From Actinopolymorpha singaporensis (lineage in GTDB: Bacteria > Actinomycetota > Actinomycetes > Propionibacteriales > Actinopolymorphaceae), in contig NZ_LT629732.1 in assembly GCF_900104745.1 (NCBI RefSeq), forward strand, positions 4,265,981 to 4,329,980: DNA of 64,000 bases, read 5' to 3'. Shown here in pieces: positions 12,501 to 24,942 of the stretch; the first letter of the stretch is position 1; every line of letters starts with the position of its first letter. The notes under the pieces were generated by a model, which saw only the letters and a list, made by a program, of their open reading frames with translations, was not told where the DNA came from and ran no database searches. Both the position numbers and the translations under genes were made by a program.

Positions 12501-12938
12501 ATGGCAACAGCGACGCAGGGCATCAACCGGGCGCCCCGACCCAGCAGCCTCGCGGACGTGCTCGAAGTCATCCTCGACAAGGGCATCGTCATCGACGCGT
12601 ACGTCCGGGTGGCGGTGGTGGGGATCGAACTCCTCACCATCGACGCGCGAATCGTGATTGCGAGTGTGGACACCTACCTACGGTTCGCCGAGGCCGTCAA
12701 CCGGCTCGACATGCAGCCGCAGGGACAGGTCGCGGGTGTCCCCGGCCTGATTCGCGAAGTCACCGAGGGCGGCGCCAAGTACAAGACGAAGGGCGCGCTG
12801 TCAGGCGTGAAGGACACCGCCAAGGAAGTGATCTCTTCCTTCACCGGCGATGACGACGAGGACGAGTCGAGTACGCCCCGCAAGCGTTCGTCGAGCCGCT
12901 CGGGTTCCCGTTCCCGTCGCAGCGACGACAACGGCTGA
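12501..12938 (+). CDS. gvpA: Gas vesicle structural protein GvpA (copy 1)
   Basis: GvpA polymerises into the ribbed wall of gas vesicles. Residues 12-70 hold the conserved core: [20 protein letters not shown], then [31 protein letters not shown] 75-residue hydrophilic tail follows, ending in an Asp/Glu run and a Ser/Arg-rich end, which is longer than in typical GvpA. The ribosome binding site GGAGGG precedes the ATG. It is nearly identical in its core to the copy at 21081. gvpY1 and gvpZ1 follow in the same direction. Confidence 0.93.
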
Positions 12939-13001: not shown

Positions 13002-15596
13002 GTGGACGACAGAGCCAAGATCGGCGCGGCGATCGCGGGAGGGTACCTCCTCGGCCGAACGAAAAGAGGCAAGGCCGCGGCAAGTTTCGCGCTGTGGCTG
13101 GCCGGGCGCCAGCTCGGGGTCGAGCCCCGCGAACTGGTGCGCGAAGGACTTCTGAAACTGGTTCAGACGCAGCAGGTCAACGAGATCGCCGCTCAGCTGA
13201 GAGGACCGTTGCTGGCCGCGGGCCGCAAGGCGGCGATCGCCACCGTCGAGTCCCGGCTGAACAGCCTGTCGGACAACCTGAACCAACGCACAGCCGACAT
13301 CACCAGCCGTGCGTCGAAGGTGGCCGACCAGGCGACCGGGGCCGGCTCCGACGTCGCCTCGGACGTGACCGACCGGGCATCTGACGCGACGGACAGGGCG
13401 ACGTCGGCGGGCGACAAGGCGGGGAAGCGCGGTGCCGGGCTCGCCGGCAGGGCGTCGGGCCTGACCGACCGGCTTCGGCCGGGTCGCAAGCGGGCGGCCG
13501 CGGACGAGGACGTCGAGCCCGACGAGGACGAGTACGACGACGCGGAGGGCTCGGACGAGTACGACGACGCGGAGGGCTCGGACGAGCCCGACGACGCGGA
13601 GGGCTCGGACGAGCCCGACGACGCGGAGGGCTCGGACGAGCCCGACGACGAGGACGACTTCGACGACGAGTACGACGACGAAGACGACGACGAGGCTGAC
13701 GACGACGAGGACGACTTCGACGACGACGAAGACGGCGACGAGGCTGACGACGAGTCGGACGACGAGGACGACTTCAACGACGAATACGACGACGAAGACG
13801 ACGACGAGGCTGACGACGAGGCTGACGACGAGTCGGACGACGAGAGCGACTTCGACGACGAATACGACGAGACGGATGAAGAGGCTGACGGCGACGTCGA
13901 CGACGACCTGCCGGAAGACGAGTACGACGACGAGCCCGACGAGAGGGATGAAGAGGCTGACGGCGACGAGCCCGAGGACGCGGACGGCGAGGACGAGTCG
14001 GATCGTGACGACGTGGCCGACGTCGACGAGCCGGACGACGACTCTGACGGTGAGCCTGCCGACGACGTCGACGACGACCGGCCCGAGGACGAGTACGACG
14101 ACGAGGCCGACGAGGACGAGTACGAGGGCGAGCCTGACGGGAAGGACGAGCCCGAGGGCGAGTACGACGAAGAGTCCGAGGACGAGGCTGACCGCGAGGA
14201 CGACTACGACGATGAGTCCGACGAAGACGGTGACCGCGAGGACGACTCGGGCCGGGACGAGGTAGCCAACGAGGCCGACGAAGAGGGCCCCGACGACGAG
14301 GGTGACGACGACGCCGACGACTACGACGACTCCGATGGCGATGGCCCTGACGGCGCCGTCCCCGGCAGCGACGATGACCAGCCTGAGGCCGAGTTCGACG
14401 AGTCGGCAGGCGACGAAGGACCTGAAGGTGAGTCTGCCGACCGGTCCGAGGGCGACTCTGACGAGGCCGACGAGCCGGACGAGGACACGCCGGATGACGA
14501 GCCCGAAGCCCAGGACGAGTCGGATGAGGGCTCGGATCGGGAGAACACCGACGACGCTCCCGCGGTAGCGGAGTCCGGCGACCGTTCCGACGACGAGCCC
14601 ACCGACCGGTCCGAAGACGGCGAGGACGACGACCAGTCCGACGCCGAGTCCCCCGAGGACTCCGGCGAGTTGGATCCTGGTTCGGAGGCCGAGGCAGAGA
14701 CCGATCCCGCCCTCGGAGCCAGTGCGGAAGAGGCCGGCAAGGCGTCGGACGCGCCGGTAAAGAAGGCTTCCACCGCTCGCAGGGCGAGGAAGACCAGCTC
14801 CGGTCGTGGAGGCAAGAAGGCTGCCTCGTCGGGTGAGGCGAAGAAGGCCGCCGCCTCCCGCGGCGGGGCGAAGGCGACCTCCGCCCGGGGTGGGGCCAAG
14901 AAGGCCGCTTCGTCGGGTGAGGGTGCGAAGAAGGCGACATCGGCGCGGGGTGGGGCCAAGAAGGCCACAGCTGCGGATGGTGGGGCGGCGAAGAAGGCGA
15001 CATCGGCGCGGGGTGGGGCCAAGAAGGCCGCTTCGTCGGGTGAGGGTGCGAAGAAGGCGACATCGGCGCGGGGTGGGGCCAAGAAGGCGACCTCCGCCCG
15101 GGGTGGGGCCAAGAAGGCAGCCTCCTCCGGTGGTGGGGCCAAGAAGGCCGCTTCGTCGGGTGGGGCGAAGAAGGCCGCCGCCTCCCGCGGCGGGGCGAAG
15201 GCGACCTCCGCCCGGGGTGGGGCCAAGAAGGCCGCTTCGTCAGGTGAGGGCGCGAAGAAGGCGACATCGGCGCGGGGTGGGGCCAAGAAGGCGACCTCCG
15301 CCCGGGGTGGGGCCAAGAAGGCAGCCTCCTCCGGTGGCGGGGCCAAGAAGGCCGCTTCGTCAGGTGAGGCGAAGAAGACGACCTCCGCTCGGGGTGGGGC
15401 CAAGAAGGCAGCCTCGTCGGGTGAGGGTGCGAAGAAGGCCGCATCGCGCACAGCTGCGAAGAAGACCACATCAGCCGGCGGGGCGAAGAAGGCCGCATCC
15501 TCCCGCACCGGTGCCAAGAAGACCGCATCGACTGGTAGCGCGAAGAAGACGGCTTCGTCCCGAGGCGGGGCGAAGAAGTCGGCATCAGCGTCCTAG
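13002..15596 (+). CDS. GvpY-like gas vesicle accessory protein with giant acidic and Lys/Ala-repeat domains
   Basis: Residues 1 to about 110 form a conserved helical N-domain (DDRAKIGAAIAGGYLLGRTK, then helices with PRELVREGLLKL). The 227-residue protein at 22384 shares this domain and sits in the position of Streptomyces gvpY. From about residue 167 to 580 the protein is almost entirely Asp/Glu with Ser, Ala, Pro and Tyr. Residues 586-864 are Lys/Ala/Ser/Gly repeats of the AKKAASSGG and AKKATSARGG type, like histone H1 or HupB tails. The start is GTG with AAGGAGA upstream. The tails are likely disordered, and the biochemical role is unknown. Confidence 0.85.
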   Translation: MDDRAKIGAAIAGGYLLGRTKRGKAAASFALWLAGRQLGVEPRELVREGLLKLVQTQQVNEIAAQLRGPLLAAGRKAAIATVESRLNSLSDNLNQRTADITSRASKVADQATGAGSDVASDVTDRASDATDRATSAGDKAGKRGAGLAGRASGLTDRLRPGRKRAAADEDVEPDEDEYDDAEGSDEYDDAEGSDEPDDAEGSDEPDDAEGSDEPDDEDDFDDEYDDEDDDEADDDEDDFDDDEDGDEADDESDDEDDFNDEYDDEDDDEADDEADDESDDESDFDDEYDETDEEADGDVDDDLPEDEYDDEPDERDEEADGDEPEDADGEDESDRDDVADVDEPDDDSDGEPADDVDDDRPEDEYDDEADEDEYEGEPDGKDEPEGEYDEESEDEADREDDYDDESDEDGDREDDSGRDEVANEADEEGPDDEGDDDADDYDDSDGDGPDGAVPGSDDDQPEAEFDESAGDEGPEGESADRSEGDSDEADEPDEDTPDDEPEAQDESDEGSDRENTDDAPAVAESGDRSDDEPTDRSEDGEDDDQSDAESPEDSGELDPGSEAEAETDPALGASAEEAGKASDAPVKKASTARRARKTSSGRGGKKAASSGEAKKAAASRGGAKATSARGGAKKAASSGEGAKKATSARGGAKKATAADGGAAKKATSARGGAKKAASSGEGAKKATSARGGAKKATSARGGAKKAASSGGGAKKAASSGGAKKAAASRGGAKATSARGGAKKAASSGEGAKKATSARGGAKKATSARGGAKKAASSGGGAKKAASSGEAKKTTSARGGAKKAASSGEGAKKAASRTAAKKTTSAGGAKKAASSRTGAKKTASTGSAKKTASSRGGAKKSASAS
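14758..15596 (+). repeat. Tandem repeat tract encoding AKKA-type units
   Basis: About 840 bp of imperfect direct repeats encode units such as GGAKKATSAR and SGEGAKKA. Units of about 30-36 bp are arranged in higher-order blocks. For example, the segment from about 14890 to 14960 recurs near 15010-15080 and 15220-15300. Length variation by slippage or recombination is expected. Confidence 0.85.
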
Positions 15597-15658: not shown

Positions 15659-17275
15659 ATGGCAGGCAAAGGAAAGTCGGTGCTGGCCGATGTCGGGTCG
15701 TCACTGCTGAAGGGACCTGTGGGGGATCGCCTCAAGCAGGAGGCACGCGAGTTCGCCACGGCCCGGGGGTCGGACTTCGTCCAGTCCCTCGGCGGCCGGC
15801 TCGAGGGGGTCACGCAGCGGCTGGAAGATCACGCCGAGAACCCCAACGGCCGTAAGAACAAGAACGGCGGCGGCGACGAGGAGGGTCAGGAGGACGGCGA
15901 CGACTCCCAGCCCGGCCGCCTCGCCTCGCTGGGGTCAGGCCTGAAGGACAAGGCCAAGTCGCTTGTCGGCAAGGGCGACGATGACGGTGAAGACGGCGAA
16001 GACGGCGAAGAGGGAGAAGGCGGCGAGGGCGGCGACGGCGAGAAGAAGGGCCGTGGCAAGGGGCGGTCCGGTCCGAAGATGACCAACATCATCGAGGACA
16101 TCAACGTCGGTGTGCCGGTGTCGGTGGCGTACGACCAGTGGACGCAGTTCCAGGAGTTCGGCTCGTTCATGAAGGGCATTCGAGGGGTCGACGCCAAGGA
16201 CGAGGTGGAGAGCAACTGGCGCGGCAAGGTCTGGTGGTCCACTCGTAGCTGGAGTGCTCGCGTCACGGAACAGATTCCGGACCGGAAGATCGCCTGGACG
16301 ACCGATGGTGCGAAGGGCACCACGAAGGGCACCGTCACCTTCCACCCGTTGGCCGACGACCTCACCAAGATCCTTGTGGTCGTCGAGTACTACCCCAAGG
16401 GGTTCATGGAGAAGACGGCGAACCTCTGGCGGGCGTTCGGCCGTCGGGTGCGTCTCGACCTCAAGCACTTCCGCCGGTTCGTCACCACACAGGGTGAGGC
16501 GTCCGGGTCGTGGCGCGGTGAGATCCGCGACGGCGAAGTCGTTCGCGAGCCCGACGAGAACGACGACTACCGCCGCGAGGACGATTTCCGTCCGCCGAAC
16601 AAGCTCCACTCGGATGACTCAGAGGACTCCGACTTCGACGACGAGACGGAAGACGACGAGTTCGACGACGAGTTCGACGACGAGGACGACGACTTCGACG
16701 ATGAGGACGAAGGCTCCGAAGAGGACGACGAGCCGACCGACGAGTTCGACGAAGACGGTGAGCCTTCGGACGAGTCCGAGGACGCCGATCAGGGTGACGA
16801 CGAGGGTGCGCCCGAAGACGCGGCGGATTCGGATGAGCCGACCGACGAGTCCGAGGACAGCTCCGACGCCTCCGACGACATCTCGGACGAGCGCGCTGCT
16901 GAGTCCGAGCAGGGCGACGAGCCGAGCGACGAGTCGGAGAACGACGCGGACGAGCCGGCCGAGAGGCCTGCGCGCAGGCGTCGTCCGAGCTCGCGTGAAG
17001 GCGCGCGTAAGCGCCCGCGCCGGCGCCCCGACAGCGAGTCCGGCGACGGCTCGGATGAGTCGGCCGCCGAGTCCGACCAGGGCGGCGACCAGTCCGACGA
17101 GTCCGGGGACAACGCGGACGAGCCGGCCGAGAGGCCCGCACGCAGGCGGCGCCCGAGCTCGCGTGAGGGTTCGCGTCAGCGCTCGGAGCGGAGCTCCGAC
17201 GGTGAGCGCAACGGCCGTTCGAGCGAAGGCCGTCGCTCTCCCCGCCGGGCCCGGAAGTCGACCACCTCGGCATGA
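15659..17275 (+). CDS. GvpZ-like SRPBCC-domain gas vesicle accessory protein (copy 1)
   Basis: The order is a helical N-terminal segment (about residues 1-70), an acidic linker, an SRPBCC/polyketide-cyclase-like domain at about residues 140-290 (VPVSVAYDQWTQFQEFGSFM to FRRFV), and a long acidic tail ending in two Arg-rich repeats (ERPARRRRPSSREG). Streptomyces gvp clusters carry such a protein (GvpZ) next to GvpY. SRPBCC folds bind hydrophobic ligands, but no ligand is known here. A good AGGAGAG site precedes the ATG. The SRPBCC domain is nearly identical to that of the protein at 23082. Confidence 0.85.
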   Translation: MAGKGKSVLADVGSSLLKGPVGDRLKQEAREFATARGSDFVQSLGGRLEGVTQRLEDHAENPNGRKNKNGGGDEEGQEDGDDSQPGRLASLGSGLKDKAKSLVGKGDDDGEDGEDGEEGEGGEGGDGEKKGRGKGRSGPKMTNIIEDINVGVPVSVAYDQWTQFQEFGSFMKGIRGVDAKDEVESNWRGKVWWSTRSWSARVTEQIPDRKIAWTTDGAKGTTKGTVTFHPLADDLTKILVVVEYYPKGFMEKTANLWRAFGRRVRLDLKHFRRFVTTQGEASGSWRGEIRDGEVVREPDENDDYRREDDFRPPNKLHSDDSEDSDFDDETEDDEFDDEFDDEDDDFDDEDEGSEEDDEPTDEFDEDGEPSDESEDADQGDDEGAPEDAADSDEPTDESEDSSDASDDISDERAAESEQGDEPSDESENDADEPAERPARRRRPSSREGARKRPRRRPDSESGDGSDESAAESDQGGDQSDESGDNADEPAERPARRRRPSSREGSRQRSERSSDGERNGRSSEGRRSPRRARKSTTSA

Positions 17276-18290: not shown

Positions 18291-18695
18291 TCAGTGCTTC
18301 CTGATCCGGCGCAACAGGAGCAGCGATCCCAGCGCCACCGGGACCGCCACCGCGACGGCCTTGCCGTTGCGGGTGCGTACGGTCTTTGCGACCTGGGTGC
18401 CGGTCCTCGCGACCTGGGTGCCGGCCTTGCGTAGTTGCTTCGGGCCGTCGGTGCGCGCCGTCGCGGACAGGTCCTTCGCCTTGTCCCGGGCCAACGTGGA
18501 GGCGCTGGTGGCGCCGGAGCGCACGCGTCCGGTCAGCTTGGCGGACTTATCCTGGGCCATCGCTCGTACGTTCATCTTGGTCCCAATCTCGTCGATGGTT
18601 CCACGTAGTCGCTCGCGGGCCTGGTCGACCTGAGCCTGGATCTCGGCGGGTCCGGCGGCCTCGCCGTGGGTGTTCGCGTTCTGCTGGTCGCGCAT
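18291..18695 (-). CDS. DUF3618 family protein
   Basis: This 134-residue protein has a DUF3618 N-terminal helix (PAEIQAQVDQARERLRGTIDEIG). A Lys/Ala/Thr-rich amphipathic region follows, then a C-terminal single membrane helix (VAVAVPVALGSLLLLRRI). Such proteins are small membrane-anchored stress-associated proteins of unknown function. The ATG at 18695 follows an excellent GGGAGGAGG site. A TTGACG-N17-TAGCAA promoter lies just upstream. It is transcribed away from gvpO, inside the gvp locus. Confidence 0.8.
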   Translation of the reverse strand: MRDQQNANTHGEAAGPAEIQAQVDQARERLRGTIDEIGTKMNVRAMAQDKSAKLTGRVRSGATSASTLARDKAKDLSATARTDGPKQLRKAGTQVARTGTQVAKTVRTRNGKAVAVAVPVALGSLLLLRRIRKH

Positions 18696-18726
18696 CCGTG
18701 CCTCCTCCCGCCGGTTCGGTGATCTC

Positions 18727-18755
18727 TTGCTATCGGGACCTGTCAACTGCGTCAA
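18727..18755 (-). promoter_or_regulatory. Sigma-70-type promoter of the DUF3618 gene
   Basis: On the minus strand TTGACG (18755-18750) and TAGCAA (18732-18727) are separated by 17 bp. The predicted start of transcription is about 25 bp before the DUF3618 ATG. Confidence 0.6.
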
Positions 18756-18756
18756 G

Positions 18757-18776
18757 TCGCCCGTTACGGCGGGCGA
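18757..18776. promoter_or_regulatory. TCGCCCG-N6-CGGGCGA inverted repeat next to the promoter
   Basis: A perfect 7-bp inverted repeat abuts the -35 box of the DUF3618 promoter. The remaining 240 bp to gvpO (18777-19016) hold no gene and must contain the promoter of the second gvp block, but no clear consensus was found. Confidence 0.4.
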
Positions 18777-19016
18777 ACCACCTCTGGCGATTTCGCGGAC
18801 GGGAATCGCGGCGGCGGCGCCACCGAACTCGGACATCTGGCCGCCGCGTGCGTACTGAGGGGTTCGTCGCACCTACTCACAGTCATTCCTTGTCAGGAAG
18901 GCCAAATCACCTCGCGCGACACAACTCAACCGATGCGGTAGCGTCGCGAAGGCGTCATCGGGGGGTGACAGAGTCGAACACGAAATACTGACCTGACCCA
19001 TATCCGCTGGGGACTT

Positions 19017-19337
19017 ATGACCGAGCGACAGCAATCAGACGCCGACCAACCCCGGGAGCGGGTGCCTCGCGCCAAGAAGAAGCCGAGCATGGCCAAGGTC
19101 ATCCGTGGAGCCGTGCAGCAGTTCGGTGAACTCACCGGCAAGCAGGCCGACGGGGTGAGTGGCGTACGCCGTGAAGGTGACGGCTGGTCGCTGCTCGTCG
19201 ACGTGGTGGAGCTCGAGCGCATCCCCTCCACGACGACGGTGATCGCGACCTACCGGCTCGACGTCACCGCCGACGGCGAGCTGGACGGCTACGAGCGCCT
19301 GCGCCGATATGTACGTGGATCGGTGGATCCGTCGTGA
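19017..19337 (+). CDS. gvpO: Gas vesicle protein GvpO
   Basis: GvpO is a small accessory protein needed for gas vesicle formation in haloarchaea and the first gene of Streptomyces gvp clusters. This 106-residue copy has a charged N-terminus. The GvpO domain follows from about residue 22: AVQQFGELTGKQADGVSGV, GWSLLVDVVELERIPSTTTV and ATYRLDVTADGEL. Its stop overlaps the gvpJ start (GTGA), so the second block is translationally coupled from here. Confidence 0.92.
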   Translation: MTERQQSDADQPRERVPRAKKKPSMAKVIRGAVQQFGELTGKQADGVSGVRREGDGWSLLVDVVELERIPSTTTVIATYRLDVTADGELDGYERLRRYVRGSVDPS

Positions 19338-19741
19338 CGCAGTCGATCACCGGTCGCAACCCTCGGCCCGACACGCTGGCCGACGTCCTGGAACGCGTTC
19401 TGGACAAGGGTGTCGTCATCGCAGGCGACATCGTCGTGAACATCCTGGACATCGAGCTGCTCTCGCTGAAGCTGCGGTTGTTCGTCGCCTCCGCCCAGAC
19501 CGCCCAGGAGATGGGCATGGACTGGTGGACGCGCGACGAGTTCTTCACCTCCCAGGCGACCGGCGGTGGCAACAAGAACGGCGAGGTCGAGGGCAAACGC
19601 GCCCCGGCTGAGCTGGAGGCGGAGAACGACCAGCTGAAGGAACGCATCGAACGTCTCGAGCGCGCGATCGCCGACCGCGAGCTTCCGGAGCGATCCGGGC
19701 GATCGAACCAGTCCGACGACACGCAGGAGGAGGATCGCTGA
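19334..19741 (+). CDS. gvpJ: Gas vesicle protein GvpJ
   Basis: This is a GvpA-fold minor wall or nucleation protein. The core LADVLERVLDKGVVIAGDIV and DIELLSLKLRLFVASAQTA followed by MGMDWW is diagnostic of GvpJ rather than GvpA. It is 135 residues long. The C-terminal part carries a probable coiled coil (AELEAENDQLKERIERLERA, about residues 91-110) that is unusual in short GvpJ proteins. GTG start at 19334, overlapping gvpO. Its stop overlaps gvpL. Confidence 0.9.
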   Translation: MTQSITGRNPRPDTLADVLERVLDKGVVIAGDIVVNILDIELLSLKLRLFVASAQTAQEMGMDWWTRDEFFTSQATGGGNKNGEVEGKRAPAELEAENDQLKERIERLERAIADRELPERSGRSNQSDDTQEEDR

Positions 19742-20526
19742 TGACGGCGGGCAGTGCTCGCGGCCTCTACCTCTTCGCCATCGTCGGTTCCACGGCGGTC
19801 GACCTGTCCGGCCTGCCGGGCATCGTCGGGGGCAGCAGCCCGCGGCTGGTCGCTCACGGCGACCTCGCGGCCGTGGTGGCCGACGTTCTTCTTTCGGCGC
19901 TGGACGTGCGGGAGGAAGAGGTCACCGAGGACGGCCCGCTCGCCCGGATGGCGATGGACCACGACACCGTGATCCGCGCCGTCTTCGACCAGACTCCCGC
20001 GCTTCCGCTGCGGCTGGCGACGGTCGTCGGCGACGAGGACGCCGTGCGGCGGCTGCTGGAGGAGCGTTCCGCCGAGATCCGCGACCTGCTCGCCCGGCTG
20101 GCCGACCACCAGGAGTGGGGGGTGAGGCTGCGCCGCGAGGCCGGGAAGTCCGACCCGAACGCCGAACGCGAACGCGACCGTGCGGGGCGTCCGTCCGGGC
20201 GTGCCTACCTGCAGGCGCGACGGGAGGCGTTGCGAGCAAGCCAGGAGCAACGCCACGCCGTACGCCAGGCCGGCGACGAGGTCTACCGCGCGCTGGCCGA
20301 GCACGCCAGCGACGCCACCCGGCTGTCGTCCGGCGGTGGGGCCGTCCTTCTGCTGAACGCCACCTATCTCGTTCCCACGTCGGCGACCGACACGTTCCGG
20401 GGCGTAGTGGAGAAGTACGCCACCGAACTGCAGGCCGGCGGGGTCCAGGTCGAGCTGACCGGCCCCTGGCCGCCGTACAGCTTCGCGCAGGTGACCATCG
20501 GATCGCAGGCGGCGGCCGATGGCTGA
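19741..20526 (+). CDS. gvpL: Gas vesicle protein GvpL/GvpF family (GvpL position)
   Basis: This 261-residue protein of the GvpL/GvpF family takes part in early gas vesicle assembly. The N-terminal ferredoxin-like domain (GLYLFAIVG; HGDLAAVVADV) leads to LPLRLATVVGDEDAVRRLL. The C-terminal domain ends GPWPPYSFAQVTIG, the family hallmark. It is assigned L rather than F from its place between gvpJ and gvpS, as in Streptomyces. Its end overlaps gvpS by 8 bp. Confidence 0.88.
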   Translation: MTAGSARGLYLFAIVGSTAVDLSGLPGIVGGSSPRLVAHGDLAAVVADVLLSALDVREEEVTEDGPLARMAMDHDTVIRAVFDQTPALPLRLATVVGDEDAVRRLLEERSAEIRDLLARLADHQEWGVRLRREAGKSDPNAERERDRAGRPSGRAYLQARREALRASQEQRHAVRQAGDEVYRALAEHASDATRLSSGGGAVLLLNATYLVPTSATDTFRGVVEKYATELQAGGVQVELTGPWPPYSFAQVTIGSQAAADG

Positions 20527-20737
20527 CCGCACGCTCGTCACCGGTTCGGGCGGGGGCACCAGTCTGGTGGACCTGCTGGACCGCGTTGTCGACCGTGGGG
20601 TGGTGGTGTCCGGCGACATCATCATCTCCCTGGCCGGCATCGACCTGATCCAGGTGAACCTCCGGCTGTTGCTGATCGGGCTGGAGACGGCCAACGAGAT
20701 ACACCGCACCAACCTCGAAGGGAGGGGCGCGCGATGA
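20519..20737 (+). CDS. gvpS: Gas vesicle protein GvpS (GvpA-like, short)
   Basis: This 72-residue member of the GvpA/J/M/S fold has LVDLLDRVVDRGVVVSGDII and GIDLIQVNLRLLLIGLETA. Short length and position between gvpL and gvpK match GvpS. It is likely a minor structural or nucleating subunit. Both ends overlap neighbours, indicating tight translational coupling. Confidence 0.87.
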   Translation: MADRTLVTGSGGGTSLVDLLDRVVDRGVVVSGDIIISLAGIDLIQVNLRLLLIGLETANEIHRTNLEGRGAR

Positions 20738-21093
20738 GCGAACCGGCACACCTGCCGCGGCTGCCGGACCTGCGGCGCACCCCTCGCATCGACGCGAACG
20801 CCGAGGACCTCGGTAGGGGCCTCGGACAACTCGTCGTGGCTCTGCTCGAACTCGTCCGTGACCTCCTGGAGCGCCAGGCGATCCGGCGAATGGACGGCGG
20901 AAGCCTGGACGACGAGGAAATCGAACGCCTGGGGGAGGCGCTGCTCGCACTGGAAGACAAGTTCGCCGAGCTCCGGGAGATCTTCGGGGTCGAACGCGAA
21001 GGACTCCGACTCCCGGTCGACGTCGACGACCTGCTCGACGAACACGAACGGCTCGACACCACAGGGAGGCACAACAAGCCATGGCAGCTGTAG
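20734..21093 (+). CDS. gvpK: Gas vesicle protein GvpK
   Basis: GvpK is an accessory protein of gas vesicle assembly. The 119-residue protein shows the conserved block [39 protein letters not shown] and [11 protein letters not shown]. The length is normal. It overlaps gvpS by 4 bp and the following gvpA by 13 bp. Confidence 0.92.
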
Positions 21094-21545
21094 CAACGCA
21101 GGGAATCAACCGTGCGCCCCGGCCGAGCAGTCTCGCGGATGTCCTCGAGGTGATCCTCGACAAGGGCATCGTCATCGACGCCTACGTCCGTGTCGCGCTC
21201 GTGGGTATCGAGATCCTCACCATCGACGCCCGGATCGTGATCGCGAGCGTGGACACCTACCTCCGGTTCGCCGAGGCGGTCAACCGGCTGGACCTCGGCC
21301 AGCAGGAGGACCAGGTGGCCGGCCTTCCGGGCCTGGTCCGGGAGGTGACCGGGGACGGCGACTCCGGCGGCAGCAAGACCAAGGGTGCACTGAGCGGAAT
21401 CAAGGAGTCCTTCTCCTCCGACGATGACGACGACGAGGATGACGACTCCGGCCGGGAGCGGTCCGCCACTCGCCGGAGGTCTTCGTCGAGCCGGAGCGCA
21501 CCGCGGTCGCGGCGCGCCAGCCGTCAGCCGACAGAGGAGTCCTGA
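21081..21545 (+). CDS. gvpA: Gas vesicle structural protein GvpA (copy 2)
   Basis: The core (residues about 13-72) differs from copy 1 at only a few conservative positions, such as [15 protein letters not shown]. The tail is different: after LVREVTG it has an acidic stretch ([11 protein letters not shown]) and a Ser/Arg-rich end. The 154-residue length is large for GvpA because of this tail. It is followed by gvpF, gvpY2 and gvpZ2, repeating the A-Y-Z order of the first block. Confidence 0.93.
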
Positions 21546-21546
21546 G

Positions 21547-22302
21547 ATGTTGTTGTTGCACGGAGTGGTCCCGGCCGGCCGCGAGATCGACGAGCAGGGT
21601 GAGCTTTCGGGCGAGGAGTACCAGATCGTCCAGGACGGTGATCTGGCCGTCCTGGCGCGGGAGGTTGCCGACGCCGAGGAGCTGACCGAGGACGACGCGG
21701 TGAAGTACCTCGACGCGCTGGTCGAGCTGGTGCGCGGCGGGCCCGTCCTGCCGCTCCGTTTCGGAACGGTCGCTCCCGATGTGGACGCGGTACGCTCGGA
21801 GGTGCTCGCGCCGGCGGCCGAGGAGTTCATCCGGGCGCTGGAGGCGACCGCCGATCTCGTGGAGCTCCGGCTGACGTTCACCCTCACCGACGAAGCCGTC
21901 CAGCGGCTGTTCAGGGAGGACCCCGAGCTACGCGCGGCGGCGGGCCGCGGCGGGCCGGGAAGTGAGATGTCGGAACGCATCGAGGTCGGGCAGCTCGTCG
22001 CGCAGCGGCTCACCGAACAACGCTCACAGCTCGTCGCCGCCTGGGTCGCGACGCTGGACGAACTCACCGAGGACACGAAGTCGATCAGCTCGTCGGAGGA
22101 GGGCTGGGAGCAGGTGGCCCTCCTCGTCCGCCGGGAGCGGTTGGACGAGTTGGACGAGGCGGTCAGGGCGCTCGCCAACGAGGTGGACGGGCTGGCTGAG
22201 GTCGAGTACGTCGGACCGCTGCCGCTCTACAGCTTCGACGCGATCGGAATGGCCGAAGCGTCGACCACAGCTAAGTCTCAGCAGTCCCGCTGGGGCTGGT
22301 GA
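21547..22302 (+). CDS. gvpF: Gas vesicle protein GvpF
   Basis: This 251-residue GvpL/GvpF-family protein begins LLLHGVVPAGREIDEQG. It contains GPVLPLRFGTVAPDVDAV and ends VEYVGPLPLYSFDAI. By position after gvpA it is GvpF. The GvpF of other systems binds GvpA and may sit on the vesicle inner face or chaperone subunits. ATG at 21547 lies one base after the gvpA2 stop. The usual next gene, gvpG, is absent; only 81 bp separate it from gvpY2. Confidence 0.88.
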   Translation: MLLLHGVVPAGREIDEQGELSGEEYQIVQDGDLAVLAREVADAEELTEDDAVKYLDALVELVRGGPVLPLRFGTVAPDVDAVRSEVLAPAAEEFIRALEATADLVELRLTFTLTDEAVQRLFREDPELRAAAGRGGPGSEMSERIEVGQLVAQRLTEQRSQLVAAWVATLDELTEDTKSISSSEEGWEQVALLVRRERLDELDEAVRALANEVDGLAEVEYVGPLPLYSFDAIGMAEASTTAKSQQSRWGW

Positions 22303-22383: not shown

Positions 22384-23067
22384 GTGGATGACAGGACGAA
22401 GATCGCTGCCGCGGTCGCGGGGGGATACCTCCTCGGCCGGACGAAGAAGGGAAAGGCCGCCATAAGCCTGGCCCTGTGGCTCGCGGGTAAGCAGCTTGGT
22501 CTGCAGCCGCGCGAGCTCGTCCGGGAGGGTGTGCTCAAGCTGGCCAGCACGCCACAGATCACCCAGCTCGGCGACCAGCTGCGCGGTCCGGTCGCCGAGG
22601 CCGGCCGCAAGGCGGCGTTGGCAACGCTGGAGTCGCAGCTCAACCGGCTGTCCGACGGCCTGCAGTCGCGCACCAGCTCCCTGACCGAGAAGTCCTCGAA
22701 GCTCAAGGACAAGGCCGGAGAGACCGTTCAGGGCGCCGACGACGAACTCGACGACGACTACGACGACGAGTACGACGACGAGGCGGACGACCGCGCCGAC
22801 GACCAGGCCGACGAGGACGAGCCCGAGGCCGACGACGAGCCCACGGACGAGGCTGACGACTCCGAGGACGCCGAGGAGCCCGCGGCCGAGCGCCGGGAGC
22901 GGCCGCGGCGTCGCCCCCGCGAAAGCGGCGGGGACGACTCGCAGGAGAAGCCGCGCCGTAGGCGCCCAAGTTCGGACGCGCCCCGCCGGGCCGCGAGCAG
23001 GACCCGTTCGGCGGGCTCCCGCCGTCAGGGTTCCGGCTCCGGCCGGCAGGTTCGGTCGCGGGGCTGA
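22384..23067 (+). CDS. GvpY-like gas vesicle accessory protein (copy 2, short)
   Basis: The 110-residue N-domain (DDRTKIAAAVAGGYLLGRTK; PRELVREGVLKLASTPQI; GRKAALATLESQLNRLSDGL) matches that of the giant GvpY1. An acidic stretch (about residues 120-175) and a basic Arg/Ser-rich end (about 176-227) follow. This is the same acidic-then-basic order as in GvpY1 but some four-fold shorter overall. Start GTG at 22384 after GAGAGGAG. Confidence 0.82.
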   Translation: MDDRTKIAAAVAGGYLLGRTKKGKAAISLALWLAGKQLGLQPRELVREGVLKLASTPQITQLGDQLRGPVAEAGRKAALATLESQLNRLSDGLQSRTSSLTEKSSKLKDKAGETVQGADDELDDDYDDEYDDEADDRADDQADEDEPEADDEPTDEADDSEDAEEPAAERRERPRRRPRESGGDDSQEKPRRRRPSSDAPRRAASRTRSAGSRRQGSGSGRQVRSRG

Positions 23068-23081
23068 GGAAGGAGAGCCGG

Positions 23082-24269
23082 GTGGCTTCCGAAAAGAGCT
23101 CGCTCCTGGGGGACGTCGGTAAGGCTCTGATGAAGAGCCCTGCCGTCGAGCGCCTCACCGACGAGGCGAAGGAGTACGCCGCCGCCCGCGGATCGGAGCT
23201 TGTCGAGTCGGTCAGCGGCAAGCTCGGTTCGCTGACCGAGAAGTTCGAGGATCAGGCCGGGAACCCCACCGCGATGACGGCCGGGGTCAAGGCGCTGCTC
23301 GAGGGCAAGTCGCCGTTGAGGGCCGGCATGAGCGCTCTCGGCCAGGGCCTGAAGAACAAGATCAAGGGCCTGTTCGGCGGCGGTCGTACCGGGCCGAAGA
23401 TGACCAACATCATCGAGGACATCGAGATCGGTGCGCCGGTGTCGGTGGTGTACGACCAGTGGACGCAGTTCCAGGAGTTCGGCTCGTTCATGAAGGGTGT
23501 CGAGGGCGTCGACGCCAAGGACGAGGTGGAGAGCAACTGGCGCGGCAAGGTCTGGTGGTCCAAGCGGAGCTGGAGCGCGCGGGTCACCGAGCAGGTTCCG
23601 GACCGCAAGATCGCCTGGACGACCGAAGGTGCGAAGGGCACGACCAAGGGTGTCGTGACCTTCCACCCGCTGGCCGACGACCTGACGATGCTCCTCCTCG
23701 TCATGGAGTACTACCCCAAGGGGCTGTTCGAGAGGACAGCGAACATCTGGCGGGCGTTCGGCCGCCGGGTACGCCTGGACCTCAAGCACTTCCGCCGGTT
23801 CGTGACGATCCAGGGGGAGGCCTCGGGGTCGTGGCGCGGTGAGATCCGCGACGGCGAAGTGGTTCGCGAGCCGGACGAGAACGACGACTACCGCCGCGAG
23901 GACGACTACGCCTCGCGGGGCAAGGCGAAGTTGGACGAACGTCCGGACGAGGACGACCTCGACGACGAGGCGGACGAGGACGCCGACGACGCGGACGAAC
24001 CCCGCGACGACGACGATCTCGACGACGAGCCGGAGGACGACCGGGACGCCGACGACGAGCCGGAGGACGACCGGGACGCCGACGACGAGCCGGAGGACGC
24101 CGACGAGCCGGAGGACGACGACCAGGACGCCGACGACGAACTCGACGACGAGTACGACGAGGACGACCGTTCGGGCGACGAGCCGGACCACGACTCGTCC
24201 GTGAACGGCAACGGCCGGGGCCCTTCGCCTCGTCGCCGGCGCCGCCGCCACGCCGAGGCGGTCCGCTGA
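23082..24269 (+). CDS. GvpZ-like SRPBCC-domain protein (copy 2)
   Basis: Residues 1-105 are a helical segment (LLGDVGKALMKSPAVERLTD). The SRPBCC domain spans about 107-250 and is almost identical to that of GvpZ1, including YDQWTQFQEFGSF and WRGKVWWSKRSWSARVTEQ. The C-terminal 100 residues are Asp/Glu-rich with repeats of DDEPEDDRDA, ending in a short basic tag. Start GTG at 23082, 14 bp after gvpY2, behind GGAAGGAGAG. Confidence 0.87.
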   Translation: MASEKSSLLGDVGKALMKSPAVERLTDEAKEYAAARGSELVESVSGKLGSLTEKFEDQAGNPTAMTAGVKALLEGKSPLRAGMSALGQGLKNKIKGLFGGGRTGPKMTNIIEDIEIGAPVSVVYDQWTQFQEFGSFMKGVEGVDAKDEVESNWRGKVWWSKRSWSARVTEQVPDRKIAWTTEGAKGTTKGVVTFHPLADDLTMLLLVMEYYPKGLFERTANIWRAFGRRVRLDLKHFRRFVTIQGEASGSWRGEIRDGEVVREPDENDDYRREDDYASRGKAKLDERPDEDDLDDEADEDADDADEPRDDDDLDDEPEDDRDADDEPEDDRDADDEPEDADEPEDDDQDADDELDDEYDEDDRSGDEPDHDSSVNGNGRGPSPRRRRRRHAEAVR

Positions 24270-24522
24270 CCGACCCGACCGGGGCGGACTCGCGGGAGTC
24301 GCACGTAATCCCGACTGTCACCTCGCAACGACACAGGGCGCTCGTGAAGTGCCGGTTTCGACCGGCCTTCCGGGCGCCCTGCGCCGTATGACGACCGTTC
24401 ATGACGCGGGCCACTGTCCAGGGGTGCCGGAACGGACCCGGTTGGCCGGTTCGGGTTCGCTGGCCTACGGTGGGGGAGAACGGCGCGCTTCCGGCCCAGT
24501 CCCAGCGAACGGAGCGAACCCC

Positions 24523-24942
24523 GTGTCGACCAACGAAACCAAGGCGAACGCCGTACACAACACCGGCGGCGCCGACCCCCAGATCCGCATCAACGCGAGC
24601 CACACCGGAGCCGGCGCTCTTGTCGCGTCCGTGACCGGCGACCTGGACCAGGCCACCTCCCAACAGCTGTCCCAGCAGCTCAACCACCTGCTCGACGAAC
24701 GACCGGCGATGGTCGTGCTGTCGTTGGAGGACGTGCCCTTCCTCGACTCCGGCGGCCTCGACGTCCTGGTGAACGTCCAGCGCCGCGCCCACGCCGAGCA
24801 GGTGCCGGTGCGCATCTGCGCGCCGCGCAGGGGGCCTACCAAGATCCTTCAGCTCACCGGCCTTGACGTCGCGTTCGACATCTACCCCACGGTGGGCGAC
24901 GCGCTGGCCGGCACCGCCAACGCGGGTTCTCCCTTCGCCTGA
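24523..24942 (+). CDS. STAS-domain anti-sigma factor antagonist-like protein
   Basis: This is a 139-residue single STAS domain (about residues 28-125). It has VASVTGDLDQATSQQL and MVVLSLEDVPFLDSGGLDVL. STAS antagonists bind anti-sigma kinases and are switched off by phosphorylation of the second Ser in a DSSG motif. Here the motif is DSGG, so the usual acceptor is Gly and only the first Ser remains. GTG at 24523 is preferred over the longer frame from 24349, with GGAG upstream. It lies just after the gvp locus and might regulate it, but that is inference. Confidence 0.82.
   Translation: MSTNETKANAVHNTGGADPQIRINASHTGAGALVASVTGDLDQATSQQLSQQLNHLLDERPAMVVLSLEDVPFLDSGGLDVLVNVQRRAHAEQVPVRICAPRRGPTKILQLTGLDVAFDIYPTVGDALAGTANAGSPFA

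Follow-up and report, generated by a model that had tools for sequence, protein, structure and literature searches.

A giant acid-then-base tail on GvpY1 of Actinopolymorpha singaporensis: an apparent extreme of a charged-tail trait shared by actinomycete gas vesicle proteins

GvpY and GvpZ are gas vesicle proteins known in actinomycetes from Streptomyces coelicolor, for which a table in PMC5839063 lists two gvpY-gvpZ pairs, SCO6503-SCO6504 and SCO0653-SCO0654. According to the same source, Arg, Glu, and Pro are abundant in Gvp proteins, and an argR mutant shows raised expression of the gvpY genes along with that of the gvp clusters. In the literature searched, no role is assigned to Streptomyces GvpY or GvpZ and no description of charged tails was found for these proteins. 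The names GvpY and GvpZ are also in use in Serratia (PMC4982088). This study concerns GvpY1 of Actinopolymorpha singaporensis, encoded by the gvpY1 gene at 13002..15596 (+) of a stretch of 64,000 nucleotides (the window; contig NZ_LT629732.1, positions 4,265,981 to 4,329,980), which carries a very long tail consisting of an acidic block followed by a Lys/Ala block.

Two other kinds of accessory protein offer comparisons by description. GvpU and GvpT have been reported to aggregate vesicles through an elongated GvpA C-terminus and, as stated in a review, have homologues only in Bacillota (PMC10903477); a similar accessory logic is given in PMC11445434, and the clustering effect of GvpU was not confirmed in one study (PMC11223475). 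The likeness of GvpY to the Bacillus megaterium proteins is in the proposed logic only, and an extended GvpA C-terminus is also present in the window. GvpC is a helical accessory protein at the vesicle exterior that has been modelled above the negatively charged C-terminus of GvpA, and extended GvpA2 C-termini may account for irregular density at the surface of B. megaterium vesicles, as described in PMC10185304. GvpY, predicted to be helical, would resemble GvpC as an accessory protein at the vesicle exterior. To our knowledge, block-polyampholyte tails of the GvpY kind do not occur in GvpC.

The gvpY1 open reading frame (ORF) is real and encodes 864 aa from a GTG start, with AAGGAG a few bases 5' of it. 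The gene lies between gvpA1 (12501..12938, +) and the SRPBCC-domain gene gvpZ1 (15659..17275, +). The protein features a conserved N-domain (residues 1-105; 13002..13316, +), a linker (residues 106-165; 13317..13496, +), an acidic block (residues 166-585; 13497..14756, +), and a Lys/Ala block (residues 586-864; 14757..15593, +). The acidic block comprises 420 aa with 153 Asp and 93 Glu and a net charge of -234; an earlier note on this DNA was right about its length (some 400 residues) but called it almost pure Asp/Glu, and its Asp/Glu content is 59%. The Lys/Ala block, put at about 280 residues in that note, is 279 aa with 55 Lys, 18 Arg, 84 Ala, and 6 Glu and a net charge of +66. It holds 26 KK doublets with a median spacing of 10, and it also contains in-frame tandem repeats, one with a unit of 204 bp. 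As had been proposed, the tail is a block polyampholyte; it is strongly net negative overall and presumably disordered.

The order of the two blocks was examined in 120 GvpY tails from 116 stretches, which are the window, 35 related contig loci (one dropped; L004 duplicates L101), and 80 further genome stretches hand-picked among the listed matches to cover families. The acidic residues precede the basic residues by centroid in 116 of the 120 tails. This order is significant against shuffles (p<=0.01) in 93 tails and significantly reversed in none. Both blocks are present at a score >=3 in 113/120 proteins, of which 108 are acid-first; the five exceptions are L129, L137, L151, L171, and L174. 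When the named loci are pooled as one group, 25 of 29 genus groups are wholly acid-first. These counts retain L129 (in genome G066, E 3.2e-4), which is unlikely to be a GvpY, and L154, with its tail of 26 aa, and both count against the acid-first order. The order had been remarked on for GvpY1 and its short paralogue GvpY2 and is kept far beyond them; the tails listed for the 120 proteins are neither absent nor randomly ordered, the opposite of the outcome that the earlier note named as telling against it. Its view that such a tail is unusual for a gas vesicle gene did not hold, since nearly every sampled actinomycete relative has a shorter version. An acid-then-base order is thus a trait of the GvpY family.

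Leaving out L154, the tails range from 53 to 862 aa, and they are near neutral overall (median net charge -5). The GvpY1 N-domain is 93% identical to that of the closest named relative, Actinopolymorpha rutila, and 40-55% identical to 33 loci (L005-L037), 29 of which are labelled Streptomyces; SCO6503 is likened to it by gene name and place. The Streptomyces proteins share with GvpY1 an SRPBCC gvpZ-like gene directly downstream inside the gvp cluster, so far as the published table shows. Streptomyces loci also carry acid-then-base tails, a feature found here and not a published definition. They differ in tail length, since, among the 120 sampled tails, none from outside the genus Actinopolymorpha is longer than 328 aa, and the four long forms of the genus have tails of 759-862 aa. 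From these comparisons GvpY1 can be classed as a GvpY-type protein of the actinomycete kind in an extreme form.

GvpY is also tied to gas vesicles by gene linkage. Among 394 genomes of the class, the Gas_vesicle domain (PF00741) is present in 85 of the 89 genomes with GvpY, and GvpY is present in 85 of the 92 genomes with PF00741. The gvpZ gene lies directly 3' of gvpY in 115/120 cases. A sample of the phylum gave GvpY matches in 10 of 296 genomes. The sole match outside the class, in G694, has a marginal E of 4.4e-4 and was taken as chance.

The giant tail is found in more than one genome. GvpY1 orthologues of 942, 962, and 859 aa are present in three more genomes of the genus, and two others (G026 and G018) have matches with short tails only. 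An assembly artefact, one of the doubts raised by the earlier note, is very unlikely with long forms in four genus genomes, three of which are single contigs. When the four long forms were aligned in pairs at the nucleotide level (six alignments, made without frame information and not mutually independent), the gaps were multiples of three in 87 of 87 cases in the acidic block and in 49 of 49 cases in the basic block. Base differences fall mainly at third positions in the basic block, and the third-position excess is mild in the acidic block. A wrong frame or a pseudogene is ruled out by the multiple-of-three gaps together with the third-position excess. Among codons with a single base difference, the charge class changes in 3% of cases in the basic block versus 27% expected, and in 22% versus 45% expected in the acidic block. 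These counts exclude codons with two or three differences (476 acidic, 209 basic) and come from a protein alignment that favours similar residues, for which the frame-blind gap alignments serve as a control.

These results show that the long acidic and Lys/Ala blocks are genuine and that their charge is under selection. The giant tail would then be a genus-level expansion of an ordinary short tail through in-frame repeat duplication, kept by selection on charge. A caveat is that conversion among repeat units could imitate conservation. The alternative that the tails are functionless products of slippage, grown by neutral repeat gain, would account for the in-frame 204-bp repeats, for the several tandem periods, and for the spread of lengths from 859 to 962 aa across the four genomes. 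It does not account for the conserved frame and charge, for a block order kept across families, or for the use of Lys against the composition of the genome, and we consider it extremely improbable. The tail is taken to be more than chance because of the orthologues, the in-frame gaps, and the Lys bias.

Contrary to what the earlier note implied, charged tails of the same kind are not restricted to GvpY and are shared by GvpA and GvpZ in many loci. GvpA1 (145 aa; Pfam Gas_vesicle 3.8e-14; NCBIfam GvpA PRK09368, 189 bits) and GvpA2 of the window extend 45 and 54 aa past the modelled GvpA domain, with acid followed by base; in GvpA1 a short acidic end follows. GvpZ1 (538 aa) consists of an N-terminal part, an SRPBCC domain (Polyketide_cyc 5.5e-17), and a charged tail with an Arg-rich end. 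Within the last 120 aa and at a score >=4, both blocks are present in 76 of 106 GvpA proteins, all 76 acid-first; in 75/120 GvpY proteins, 71 acid-first; and in 55/110 GvpZ proteins, 51 acid-first. The background is 3 of 224 sampled ORFs, one of them acid-first; these ORFs were selected on their codon composition in 400 kb of sequence from the window's genome and are not annotated genes, and many genomes contributed to the set of Gvp tails. The GvpA set omits hits under 85 bits (GvpJ/S-like) and retains L098 and L124, whose odd long tails are probably read past a sequence error. The 110 GvpZ proteins remain from 116 after removal of L014, L126, L127, and L169 (tails without D/E or without K/R) and of L140 and L141 (<20 aa); L136, whose tail seems to contain a second SRPBCC stretch, was retained.

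The median net charge is -1 for GvpA tails and -43 for GvpZ tails. These values, together with the great variation in tail length and motif, fit a hydration bristle, in which the tails of GvpA, GvpY, and GvpZ solubilise the hydrophobic parts of vesicles and hold neighbouring vesicles at a distance, so that charge content matters and pairing does not. Such a bristle has no need for acid before base, for the Lys preference of the GvpY1 basic block (75% of K+R, versus 16% in the ORFs sampled from the genome), or for a basic block so conserved in charge, and it seems an unlikely explanation.

The Lys bias bears on a further alternative, a nucleic-acid tether, in which the Lys/Ala block attaches to DNA or RNA in the manner of HU/HupB or of a histone H1 tail and so ties the nucleoid to the vesicles or to the place where they are assembled, with the acidic block as a tuning element. 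The tail of the HU homologue encoded in the same genome has a K/(K+R) of 0.81, a K+R density of 0.31, and no Asp or Glu; the GvpY1 block has a K/(K+R) of 0.75 with 73 K+R in 279 aa, and the sampled ORFs have 0.16. The tail of histone H1 is likewise of low complexity and rich in Lys and Ala, with Lys preferred to Arg. The likeness that the earlier note saw to HU-like repeats therefore stands for composition, with a Lys-biased, Ala-rich, and nearly acid-free sequence, but it does not extend to a Bac_DNA_binding domain (PF00216), which was not found in GvpY1 and has its single match in the genome elsewhere. GvpY1 also differs from HU/HupB and H1 in having 420 aa of acidic sequence ahead of the basic block and in the net negative charge of its tail as a whole. 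Additionally, the KK spacing is ~10 in GvpY1 versus mostly 5-9 in HU, GvpY tails in general are near neutral, GvpY2 and GvpY3 have tails rich in Arg, unlike the Lys-biased GvpY1, and the like tails of GvpA are left unexplained. Because of the HU-like Lys bias, nucleic-acid binding is a serious rival for GvpY1 and less so for the Arg-rich GvpY2 and GvpY3; as an account of the tails it is quite unlikely.

The N-terminal part of GvpY was described in the earlier note as a folded domain, which was not confirmed. AlphaFold2, run with the window sequence and related-locus sequences, predicted helices at residues 3-14, 22-37, 42-54, and 57-157 of GvpY1 1-168 (mean pLDDT 67, pTM 0.31), the last of which spans most of the linker; GvpY2 1-105 gave a mean pLDDT of 64 and a pTM of 0.30. 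That this part is helical is a fair statement of a prediction of low confidence. The predicted helical N-part contains hydrophobic stretches. No Pfam or NCBIfam model, PF00741 included, matched GvpY1 at E<=0.01, and a Pfam scan of 11 GvpY N-domains at relaxed E gave seven families that each matched one member only (best 0.0065). An hhalign comparison of the GvpZ N-terminus profile, built over many loci, with GvpY residues 55-97 gave a score of 27.6 and a probability of 59.5%; the maximum of 60 column shuffles was 14.7 and the reversed profile scored 19.6. The corresponding GvpZ N-termini in the window lie at 15659-16050 and 23082-23399, and the resemblance is suggestive.

Predicted helices with hydrophobic stretches, the likeness to the GvpZ N-terminus at its modest hhalign probability, and gene linkage would all suit an assembly chaperone, in which GvpY and GvpZ bind the hydrophobic subunits GvpA or GvpJ/S, tail to tail, and are absent from finished vesicles. 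A chaperone function alone accounts neither for the long basic block nor for the giant form, and we regard it as improbable.

Some loci show blocks that have moved or are jointly missing. In one actinomycete family, f21 (L134, L139, L141, L142, L155, L168-L172, and L176), both blocks (score 4) are present in 0 of 11 GvpA proteins versus 75/92 elsewhere, and the basic block (score 5) in 0 of 11 GvpY proteins versus 85/92 elsewhere. This comparison covers 103 loci, with L004, L129, L154, loci without GvpA, and GvpA tails >200 aa dropped. In L126 and L127 the halves are split between the partners, with a GvpY tail that is acidic and has no Lys and a GvpZ tail that is rich in Lys and has no acid; L122, from the same genus, has both blocks in GvpY.

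Seven genomes have PF00741 and no GvpY, and a wider GvpY model gave a best E of only 0.014 in them. Clusters were examined in five, leaving G376 and G418 with one PF00741 match each. GvpY was not found in the gas vesicle cluster of G372 (470 contigs; L212, G372:C351:6000-14942), where the GvpZ tail is acidic and then rich in Lys. The GvpA tails of G445 and G633 are still acid-base; the G633 stretch ends at a contig end and GvpZ relatives lie on another contig. In the cluster stretches of G508 and G613 no GvpZ was seen, and the GvpA tails appear by eye to have no acidic block ahead of the base; G613 has an SRPBCC relative elsewhere in the genome. These few GvpY-free clusters point both ways.

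The window's genome (G000) is a single 6.40-Mb contig, and a second gas vesicle block follows gvpZ1 in the window, all on the forward strand. It contains gvpO (19017..19337; Pfam GvpO 2.3e-28), a gvpJ-like gene (19334..19741; Pfam Gas_vesicle 2.3e-15, best NCBIfam match GvpJ, under its cut-off), gvpF/L (19741..20526; Pfam GvpL_GvpF 3.4e-53), a PF00741 stretch in a small gvpS-like ORF (20561..20674; G000:C1:4286541-4286654), gvpK (20734..21093; Pfam GvpK 3.1e-24), and gvpA2 (21081..21545; 154 aa, acid-then-base tail, GvpA profile match of 205 bits). A second gvpF/L (21523..22302; Pfam GvpL_GvpF 5.7e-37) has a start that is not fixed, the listed ORF opening at 21424. The block is completed by gvpY2 (22384..23067; 227 aa), with 66% identity to the GvpY1 N-domain and a short Arg-rich acid-then-base tail, and by gvpZ2 (23082..24269; 395 aa). 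A DUF3618 protein (7.9e-9) is encoded between the two blocks on the opposite strand (18291-18872, -), and an ORF 3' of gvpZ2 (24349-24942, +) reads by eye like an anti-anti-sigma (STAS) protein. A third gvpY of the genome encodes an Arg-rich protein of 210 aa, GvpY3 (match at 3451281-3451589), in a third gas vesicle cluster with GvpA and GvpZ (L109, G000:C1:3446500-3456000). By eye, locus L003 contains a GvpF/L-like ORF.

The explanation that we prefer, and hold tentatively, is that the charged GvpA, GvpY, and GvpZ tails form an electrostatic system that organises vesicles by acting through the exposed GvpA tail. It draws on the block order, the linkage to gas vesicle genes, the like tails on the three proteins, the joint absence in family f21, the placement of the Lys-rich block in GvpZ in L126, L127, and G372, the selection on charge, and the rise of the S. 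coelicolor gvpY genes in the argR mutant. In studied vesicles the C-terminus of GvpA points outward (PMC10961726), and an electrostatic coat is proposed because of this exterior position and because the same terminus is the reported point of action of GvpU and GvpT. The helical N-part of GvpY1 would probably dock on the vesicle, the membrane, or GvpZ. Its polyanion-then-polycation tail may pair electrostatically with the tails of other GvpY copies, GvpZ, and GvpA, and many weak acid-base contacts would give a soft coat or condensate, sensitive to salt, by which vesicles are clustered or spaced. Such a role would be like that reported for the phase-separating GvpU (and for GvpT) in B. megaterium, exerted via the GvpA C-terminus with other proteins. 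The condensed phase and the autoinhibition by charge pairing that the earlier note suggested for GvpY1 are both compatible with the tail. A more specific form of this proposal is possible but doubtful, namely that actinomycetes have a system of their own in which matching GvpA, GvpY, and GvpZ tails co-condense, both charges are retained at the locus by selection, with blocks moving now and then between GvpY and GvpZ, and the whole is an independent counterpart of GvpU with GvpY1 as its extreme.

The GvpY gene was known already; what is new here is that its tail is real, selected, and echoed on the shell protein. If the proposed role is true, the GvpY tails would provide a natural block-polyampholyte series from 53 to 862 aa, along with a few cases in which nature has shifted the basic block from one partner to another. 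Both condensate physics and the engineering of vesicles for ultrasound could make use of them. The reported clusterers GvpU and GvpT are stated in PMC10903477 to be confined to Bacillota. The shared charged tails suggest a means by which actinomycetes organise vesicles in the cell, and if they do so, they would represent a second solution that uses proteins other than GvpU and GvpT.
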